IMG/VR virus record: IMGVR_UViG_3300042465_006232 | Span: 1 to 48,899 of that record | Length of the DNA stretch: 48,899 nt | Reading direction: 5' to 3' (one strand) | Origin: a virus | Shown: positions 14,202 through 43,296 of the stretch, one piece after another | Layout: the number at the start of each line of letters is the position of its first letter | How positions within the stretch are numbered: the stretch's first letter is position 1 | Made by a program: the position numbers and the translations under genes | The notes under the pieces: generated by a model | The model's input: only the letters and a program-made list of their open reading frames with translations | Told to the model about the DNA's origin: nothing | The model's database searches: none

Positions 14202-14426
14202 TTACTCAAAAAGCTCTTCTTTGTTAACGCTTAGATAATTAATCATCTCTGTTATTACGATATGATTATACAAGTTTCCAAATACATTATTATCCCTTAA
14301 AGCCCTGTAGAACCATTGCTCCACTCTTCTTTCGCTGCATTCGAAATTGTTTGCGATAATTTTATGGAACGCATTATCTCTAACCAATTTCTCAAGAATA
14401 TTCTTTTTTAAAGTTTTTTTTATCAT
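14202..14426 (-). CDS. Small HTH protein, Cro- or excisionase-like candidate
   Basis: A 74-aa basic protein. Residues 15-45 read as helix-turn-helix: a helix with FHKIIANNFE, a turn at CS, then a recognition-type helix ERRVEQWFYRAL. It is encoded divergently from the XRE-family gene at 14539, with 112 bp between the starts. That arrangement and size are typical of a phage Cro-like regulator or excisionase opposing a repressor. Which is not decidable from sequence alone. Confidence 0.5.
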   Translation of the reverse strand: MIKKTLKKNILEKLVRDNAFHKIIANNFECSERRVEQWFYRALRDNNVFGNLYNHIVITEMINYLSVNKEELFE

Positions 14427-42364: not shown

Positions 42365-42806
42365 AAGTGATTTGTTTCGGCCATAGACCGTAGTAAAATG
42401 CGTTGTAAGTACTGTTTAATAGCTATTTAAGAACATAACTATTTCCTACCCTGAACATAGCCGTAGTAGGCTTTTCGGGTCGAGACTTAATTGCTTAAGT
42501 CCGAATTTAACTTTGAATTTCCGTAGTTGTTATTCAGTTAATTTCCATATTCAATTTTACTTGAACTTAGGATCTTAACCTATCCTATGTATTTAGTTTT
42601 TTGCGGTTTATCCTGACCATTTCTAAATACCCTACATTATATCAAAGCTCTTTTTAGTCTATCGGGGACAACTCAGTGGCTATTTTACTAGTGTTTCCGC
42701 CACTTACAACCCAACTTCTAATCCTATTACTCGCATCGGAAAATCTCTTTTCAGAGACAAAGAATACGTATGAACCTTACAGGATGAAAGGCTTTTGAAA
42801 CCTGAC
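42365..42806 (-). ncRNA. Candidate large structured RNA or 5' leader, hairpin array
   Basis: Gene-free stretch on the minus strand with eleven hairpins in series. Pairs (plus coordinates): 42798-42803/42789-42794; 42753-42758/42743-42748 (GAAA tetraloop); 42710-42714/42662-42666 enclosing 42699-42704/42675-42680; 42623-42630/42589-42596 (8 bp); 42582-42587/42568-42573; 42561-42565/42550-42554; 42537-42541/42507-42511; 42501-42505/42474-42478 enclosing 42495-42500/42485-42490 (GCAA tetraloop); 42466-42470/42445-42449; 42435-42443/42418-42426 (9 bp); 42386-42390/42378-42382. From 42418 to 42630 they follow with 1-8 nt gaps. GNRA loops appear only when read on minus. A TATATTTG box lies just upstream. 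Either a stable RNA or a leader of the late operon; no known family recognised. Confidence 0.5.
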
Positions 42807-42811
42807 TGTCA

Positions 42812-42819
42812 CAAATATA
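42812..42819 (-). promoter_or_regulatory. -7 box for late operon or structured RNA
   Basis: On the minus strand TATATTTG is an exact TAnnTTTG match. Transcription would begin near 42805, directly ahead of the first hairpin. Upstream is a very AT-rich tract (42825-42925) with long T and A runs that could act as an UP element, but no TTG lies at -33. Confidence 0.55.
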
Positions 42820-43035
42820 CTTTAAAAGAATACATAAAAAATTTTTTATATATATTTTTTTAAAGTTTTTTTTATTAGTAGAGATGTGTGTGTGTTCTTC
42901 TAAAAAATTTAAAAAAATTTTTTTTCTAAGAGCGTGAGATGATCCATTCACCAACCGCCCTGCTTTTTAATAATGGGTGAACCCCCTAGGTTGATATACT
43001 ATCAACTTCAGTAACATTACCAAACACTACGTATT
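42820..43035. other. AT-rich divergent intergenic region
   Basis: Between the leftward promoter box and the rightward gene at 43036. 42825-42925 is almost pure A/T with homopolymer runs up to eight. 42990-43006 is a perfect 7-bp dyad (GTTGATA-TAC-TATCAAC) 30 bp before the 43036 ATG, a candidate operator. Around 42954-42988 is a GC-richer patch with GGGTGAACCCCC. No TAnnTTTG box was found on the plus strand. Confidence 0.45.
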
Positions 43036-43296
43036 ATGGCAAATGCTAAACTTATTTCTTCTTACGAATTCAAAGGAACATCAAAAGTAAAAGGCACACC
43101 TTTTGTCTTTTTCACAGCTATTCTCGCCTTAGACGGCTTAATAGTTAAGGCACAGACTGATGAAGCTACGCTTCTCACTCTGAAAGATAAAGTTGGAACA
43201 AAGTTCAACCTTTATAAACAATTCAGAGCAACTGAAGACGGAGTCTTAGTTGAGTCTTATTACTTAGGTGAAGAAAAGATTAAAAAGAATAAATAG
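43036..43296 (+). CDS. Small early protein, unknown
   Basis: An 86-aa protein, beta-rich and basic (LISSYEFKGTSKVKGTPFVFFTAILALDG, then VGTKFNLYKQFRATEDG). It lies alone between a long divergent region and its own terminator; its TAG stop is inside the terminator stem. Monocistronic, so probably strongly expressed early. No family recognised; the length and fold could fit a small OB-like or host-takeover protein. Confidence 0.6.
   Translation: MANAKLISSYEFKGTSKVKGTPFVFFTAILALDGLIVKAQTDEATLLTLKDKVGTKFNLYKQFRATEDGVLVESYYLGEEKIKKNK

Follow-up and report, generated by a model that had tools for sequence, protein, structure and literature searches.

The comparison of homologues shows that a gene-free stretch between the late and early arms of a phage genome encodes, on its minus strand, a structured RNA that belongs to a new family, as predicted from sequence conservation and pairing. 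The window analysed here is the whole 48,899-nucleotide virus record IMGVR_UViG_3300042465_006232. A sequence-only reading of it had proposed an undescribed RNA at this place, and covariation in the homologues now speaks strongly for that proposal. Five helices (P1, P2o, P2, P3 and P3b) are backed by compensatory changes, and we regard this evidence as strongly positive. What the RNA does is a harder question. We tentatively favor an autonomous structured RNA, co-transcribed with the phage late genes and probably acting in trans, and we place this slightly ahead of a cis-acting leader such as a put-like antiterminator.

The locus

In this 48.9-kb virus record, matches to PHROG families were obtained for TerL (6681), the portal (6547) and the major head protein (11589). 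TerL is about 45% identical to the TerLs of Steigviridae crAss-like phages, and the source virus is a crAss-like phage. Minus-strand genes from 42339 downwards make up the late arm (terminase, portal, head), and plus-strand genes from 43036 upwards make up the divergent early arm. No credible ORF was found between 42339 and 43036, so the stretch is as free of genes as the sequence-only reading had supposed. Its placing between the arms also holds, and most relatives carry the RNA at the same early/late junction. Scans with the proteins that flank the RNA on both sides gave no relatives.

The promoter-like box noticed earlier right upstream is present as a -7 box of the Bacteroidota type (Table 1). 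Similar TAnnTTTG-like boxes stand upstream of the RNA in most relatives, several of them with an upstream TTG or TTTG. The RNA is expected to start at about 42803-42806, and at the other end the real signal reaches about 42400 and possibly 42378.

Two further elements were observed in the intergenic DNA. The block at 42930-42995, just upstream of the divergent early gene (minus strand CCTAGGGGGTTCACCCATTATTAAAAAGCAGGGCGGTTGG...GGATCATCTCAC), is nearly identical in the relative L007, and the sequence separating it from the RNA is not; the block is possibly an early promoter or operator. A 26-nt AT-rich stretch occurs, 92% identical, at 42850-42875 and 14398-14423, once in each of the two divergent intergenic regions. 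It may be a promoter element common to the two regions, or a chance result of low complexity.

Table 1. Features of the junction and predicted parts of the RNA (window coordinates)
Feature	Position	Strand	Basis or remark
First late-arm gene downstream of the RNA, 68 aa	42133..42339	-	ORF; without family match
Structured RNA (predicted); 5' end 42806, 3' end estimated	42400..42806	-	z -4.0, L007 homology, 3' motif 42439-42453
3' region, close to first late gene	42439..42501	-	
Conserved 3' motif CAGGGUAGGAAAUAG (family form AGGGG...)	42439-42453	-	
3'-region hairpin GCCUACUACGGC	42460-42471	-	
3'-region hairpin GACUUAAGCAAUUAAGUC	42484-42501	-	
P3b 3' strand CUACG, GAAA internal-loop side, P3 3' strand UCAAAG	42511..42526	-	
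Two more P3-domain hairpins (GGAUAGGUUAAGAUCC, UUCAAGUAAAAUUGAA)	42550..42585	-	poorly conserved; second partly missing in L007
P4 hairpin GUAUUUAG...CUAAAUAC	42589..42630	-	MFE; helix nearly the same in L007
P3b 5' strand UGUAG	42632..42636	-	flank-defined complementarity
Conserved internal-loop side UAUAA, directly after P3 5' strand	42641-42637	-	
P3 5' strand CUUUGA	42642..42647	-	flank-defined complementarity
Conserved motif UGUCCCCGAUAG; its CCCRAU is the P2o 3' strand	42659..42670	-	100% of cells paired, 62 sequences
P2 hairpin AGUGGC...GCCACU	42675..42704	-	GUUUGC/GCAAAC in L007
Conserved motif AGAAGUUGGGUU; its GUUGGG is the P2o 5' strand	42708..42719	-	invariant in 45 rows (also the search seed)
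P1 domain, closing helix AUCCU...AGGAU	42721..42785	-	MFE; family covariation
P1 inner hairpin UCUCUGAAAAGAGA	42744-42757	-	MFE
P0 hairpin AGGUUU-CAA-AAGCCU	42789..42803	-	L007 at same place: AGAUA-GCGA-UAUCU
Promoter -7 box TATATTTG, Bacteroidota type (TAnnTTTG)	42812..42819	-	sequence; conserved in L007
First gene of divergent early arm, 86 aa; other side of junction	43036..43296	+	homologue in L007

Finding the family

A TerL search found L007, which can be aligned along the entire region (76% over 1145 nt) and shows compensatory changes from GUGGC/GCCAC to GUUUGC/GCAAAC. L009 is a more distant relative that keeps AGAAGTTGGGTT and TGTCCCCAATAG at the same junction and little else. The conserved core of the minus strand reads AGAAGUUGGGUU...UGUCCCCRAUAG, and scanning IMG/VR with the pattern AGAAGTTGGGTTN{25,55}TGTCCCC gave 89 stretches, about 83 of which are real. 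A flanking core, ...GGGTC-AGAAGTTGGGTT-[hairpin]-GTTGTCCCCRATAG-...AAAnTTGC-nnnnnn-TATAA, is common to all except six; the six are without conserved flanks, lie mostly in coding sequence and were excluded as chance. Reducing the pattern matches left 45 non-redundant members.

An independent pattern that required neither AGAAGTTGGGTT nor the motif AGAAGUUGGGUU matched nine contigs. Seven of these are the RNA, and both sequences are present in all seven; the remaining contigs carry almost the same sequence as each other, which is unrelated and looks coding. The region and two further members gave no match in a BLAST search of 50,697 phage records. The covariance model R1 was built from 45 training rows, and the window, itself one of these rows, matches it with 73 bits (E 3e-14). 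Records outside the training set match too. The window has the features that define the R1 family, namely the P2o helix (AGAAGUUGGGUU/CCCRAU), P1 and P2, and it also has the long-range helices P3 (CUUUGA/UCAAAG) and P3b (UGUAG/CUACG) at the positions defined by their flanks.

Covariation and the fold

The strongest evidence comes from compensatory changes. In A1, an ordinary MAFFT alignment of the 45 core sequences, 86% of the cells of the 17 proposed pairs are paired, and the covariation score is 0.380 against 0.140 for shuffled data and 0.132 or less when partners are slid by 1-3 columns. A second alignment (A4) holds 62 members aligned to the model, i.e. fitted to the structure, and in it P2o (GUUGGG/CCCRAU) is paired in all 62 sequences. 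Three P2o pairs are doubly changed, and the changes seen are UA to UG, CG and AU, and GC to AU. Double changes occur at 5 of 5 pairs in P1 and at all 6 pairs in P2 of the same alignment.

For P3 the 3' strand was placed by its flanking motifs only, and complementarity was not used. This sited the strand in 27 of the 45 members; the remainder have altered flanks and were excluded. The two strands are complementary in 26 of these 27, with 17 distinct pair types, and P3b, which lies beyond the UAUAA/GAAA internal loop, pairs perfectly in 17 of 20 types. For each helix none of 20000 permutations was as good, by controls that ignore the relatedness of the sequences.

Folding energy is a different matter. 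The earlier expectation that the stretch would fold better than chance stands for the stretch as given, whose minus strand beats 100 of 100 shuffles (z -4.0; plus strand -1.6), but the effect is modest in homologues, where the mean z over 20 family members is -0.87 on the RNA strand against -0.48 on the other. Cutting the stretch to 384 nt also drops its z to -2.4. The signal is fragile enough that an energy argument alone cannot carry the claim of a structured RNA, and we dropped it as main evidence after seeing the z-scores of the homologues.

The eleven hairpins in series that had been drawn by eye have to be given up. The minimum-energy fold has nine hairpin loops, and the fold supported by evolution is multi-branched as judged by covariation: the RNA would form P0, P1 with its inner hairpin, an arm of P2o and P2 based on AGAAGUUGGGUU and UGUCCCCRAUAG, and the long-range domain P3-UAUAA/GAAA-P3b. 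This last domain (42647 pairs with 42511 etc.) encloses several of the supposedly serial hairpins. Another long-range pair, UUGUAAGU/ACUUACAA (42702-42709 with 42403-42410), is feasible only in the window and L007 and overlaps P2, and we do not claim it.

We assign the RNA to the minus strand because GU pairs outnumber AC pairs and because of the orientation of the promoter. Among the non-Watson-Crick cells, P2o has 53 GU and 0 AC and P2 has 29 GU and 15 AC; in P1 GU hardly exceeds AC.

Distribution

Model R1 finds exactly one copy per record in 34 IMG/VR viral records of up to 106 kb. Among 35 scanned proteins the terminases associated with the RNA belong to the crAss-like phrog_6681 in 11 cases and to phrog_38 in 4, and since both occur near the RNA it crosses phage groups. 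The RNA family is common to many unrelated viruses of Bacteroidota, at one copy per genome.

Named phages carry it as well. One is cr111_1, a crAss-like phage of the Steigviridae found in human faeces; there the RNA (R1 E 8.6e-6) lies at the same early/late junction, in the gap between a minus-strand tRNA-Arg and a plus-strand operon, and its P2o is GGAGGG/CCCUUC. At the corresponding junction of crAss001 there is a gap of 318 nt; it has a similar promoter, and a 34-nt block in it matches the cr111_1 RNA at 91% identity. The R1 core was not recognised in that gap, which from its sequence is a probable divergent relative of the RNA. Two other matches to R1 were set aside. The one in Cellulophaga phage phi4:1 (E 0.015), a coreless P1-like hairpin that runs into nrd, probably arose by chance, and the one in cr126_1 (E 0.95) lies inside a gene.

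The RNA is rare in bacteria. A pattern scan of one genome per species across 84,980 bacterial species gave matches in two, both Bacteroidota. Of 395 Bacteroidota genomes sampled with R1, only one had the RNA. The rumen MAG RUG14866 (G009) has 17 copies; a sample of its genus added G625 with 12 copies and G526 with one. A single chromosomal copy in Salinimicrobium (L102, NZ_JAIVCC010000016.1) lies near excisionase-like and relaxase-like genes (named by eye), which suggests that it sits in an integrated mobile element.

Genomic context

Nearly all phage copies of the RNA lie promoter-proximal to a co-directional late operon at a divergent junction. The first genes after it differ: a holin, a small gene before the terminase small subunit, a virion protein, or the ribonucleotide reductase region. 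A predicted intrinsic terminator separates the RNA from the first gene in only 1 of 43 phage gaps, and a second promoter lies between them in 8 of 43 loci. A few lineages (e.g. L066 and L092) have the RNA behind a co-directional gene instead. The exception is L029, where the flanking genes on both sides are on the opposite strand and no substantial co-directional gene lies within about 3.9 kb downstream.

The bacterial copies look different. In G009 and G625, which are related Bacteroidales, they are dispersed stand-alone genes. Several have a clear -33/-7 promoter, an intrinsic terminator closely follows many of them, and they often converge on the next gene. That neighbor is often faced at its 3' end, where the product has a type 9 secretion cargo-like end (named by eye). 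Some copies are full-length, and many are missing the outer P3 domain.

Other RNA genes were seen in the same phage records. Islands of tRNA genes lie 3' of the RNA and co-directional with it in two of them (L029:1919-4076, 19 tRNA genes; L075:2994-6279, 10), and L049:11020-11416 is a tmRNA gene (RF00023, 63 bits) that ARAGORN does not report.

What the RNA may do

Several readings of the RNA deserve to be weighed against the same evidence. The reading we tentatively prefer would run as follows. One copy per phage would be made from a host-type promoter at the early/late switch; the promoter and its place are there to be seen, and transcription we infer. The product would be a self-contained RNA, abundant alongside the late transcripts in the manner of a phage tRNA or of GOLLD/ROOL, and it would engage a host factor in trans, the host transcription machinery being our first guess. 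In most phages it would form the 5' part of the late transcript and be processed from it, or be active while still attached. That the RNA may be able to act by itself is suggested by L029, with both neighbors on the other strand, and from the stand-alone genes of G009 and G625, often with promoter and terminator and convergent to a neighbor; the eight phage loci with another promoter after the RNA point the same way. Against this, the promoter-proximal, co-directional and almost terminator-free phage RNA is at least equally compatible with a cis leader, the outer P3 domain is missing from several bacterial copies, and the idea of a Ro60/TROVE partner failed. The cis leader is quite possible in its own right. 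It would be a nascent RNA that binds the very host RNA polymerase transcribing it and makes this enzyme resistant to pausing and termination along the very long late operon, as put does, or one that controls or protects the late mRNA, and it is suggested by the phage position without a terminator together with the single copy per phage and the variable first genes. It is known from HK022 put that a nascent RNA alone can render RNA polymerase resistant to pausing and termination (PMC9378689). The late genes of crAss001 start at 30-60 min, probably by means of host RNA polymerase, and the host-type promoter of the RNA fits this (PMC8375218). However, a cis leader sits less well with the many stand-alone bacterial genes that end in a nearby terminator and face convergent genes, with L029 and its lack of anything substantial to lead, and with the eight loci where another promoter follows.

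The other explanations fare worse. A catalytic or processing role, in which the RNA cleaves itself or is cut by the host and so trims the late transcript, would be in keeping with a compact and very conserved core with invariant unpaired residues (AGAA, UGUC) found in both phages and rumen bacteria. We consider it improbable, since we can name no conserved cleavage site and see no match to any known ribozyme family, and a size of 300-430 nt with a variable 3' domain is unlike the small ribozymes. Still less credible is a DNA element (an origin, a packaging site or protein-binding palindromes) whose inverted repeats merely resemble RNA. The divergent junction is a natural location for one, but GU exceeds AC on the RNA strand, the helices are long-range and multi-branched, the promoter and 3' motif keep a constant orientation, and bacterial copies come with promoter and terminator. 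Chance folding of AT-rich spacer DNA can draw on the unimpressive z-scores of the relatives, yet we give it almost no credence in view of the compensatory changes in five helices, the permutation results for P3 and P3b and conservation across dozens of phage lineages. A more adventurous reading is that unrelated Bacteroidota phages share a protein-free RNA device that, at the switch from early to late genes, captures host RNA polymerase or a different host machine, with the stand-alone and often shortened Bacteroidales copies as decoys or domesticated forms. We think this unlikely, though less so than catalysis.

Relation to known RNAs

Rfam 15, which includes GOLLD, ROOL, 6S, tmRNA, riboswitches and ribozymes, gave no match to the window RNA at the gathering threshold. 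The RNA was likewise unmatched in 9 phage and 8 bacterial loci, with only chance-level matches in permissive scans, and so the earlier failure to recognise a known family is upheld. We found no description of the family in the literature searched, most subscription papers and the preprint servers being outside its coverage. The RNA appears to be new at the level of the RNA family, and its broad kind, the large structured phage RNA, has precedents in GOLLD and ROOL (PMC12286853).

Like these two, it is large, intricately folded, phage-encoded and without an assigned function, and some members lie near tRNA genes (L061, L075 and the crAss001 junction). Unlike them, it fails both covariance models, has its own core motifs, sits at the early/late junction and is free of tRNA genes in most loci. 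It is also shorter, about 300-430 nt against 659 nt for one ROOL RNA and over 800 for many GOLLD RNAs (PMC12286853). It resembles HK022 put as a promoter-proximal structured RNA in cis to a long phage operon, with L029 and the bacterial copies as exceptions. However, it is much larger, belongs to other hosts and to a late rather than an early operon, and stands alone in bacteria; a relation to put is not evident in sequence or structure.

The likeness to Y RNAs and Ro60 (TROVE) systems comes from genes in a few of the phages. TROVE-type proteins are encoded within a few kb of the junction in crAss001 (gp96, L155) and cr111_1 (L154), and L032 encodes a phrog_850-type protein (L032:5253-6746; DUF2828/DUF7788, the PHROG labelled RNA-binding). 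In nearly all records, unlike in Y RNA systems, the RNA is not encoded together with such a protein. We reject a Y RNA of a phage Ro60 protein, as TROVE (PF05731) and phrog_850 are absent from the window and from 26 of 26 RNA-bearing IMG/VR records searched whole.

Significance

We believe that this highly conserved and strongly covarying RNA, which dozens of phage lineages (crAss-like phages among them) carry in a single copy and which Rfam lacks, is a core component of these viruses that has been overlooked. The stand-alone bacterial copies are simple genetic handles for studying it, and stranded RNA-seq of a crAss001 infection already exists (PMC8375218). An action on host RNA polymerase would account for the reading of very long late operons, and an action in trans would place the RNA beside GOLLD and ROOL as a new class.
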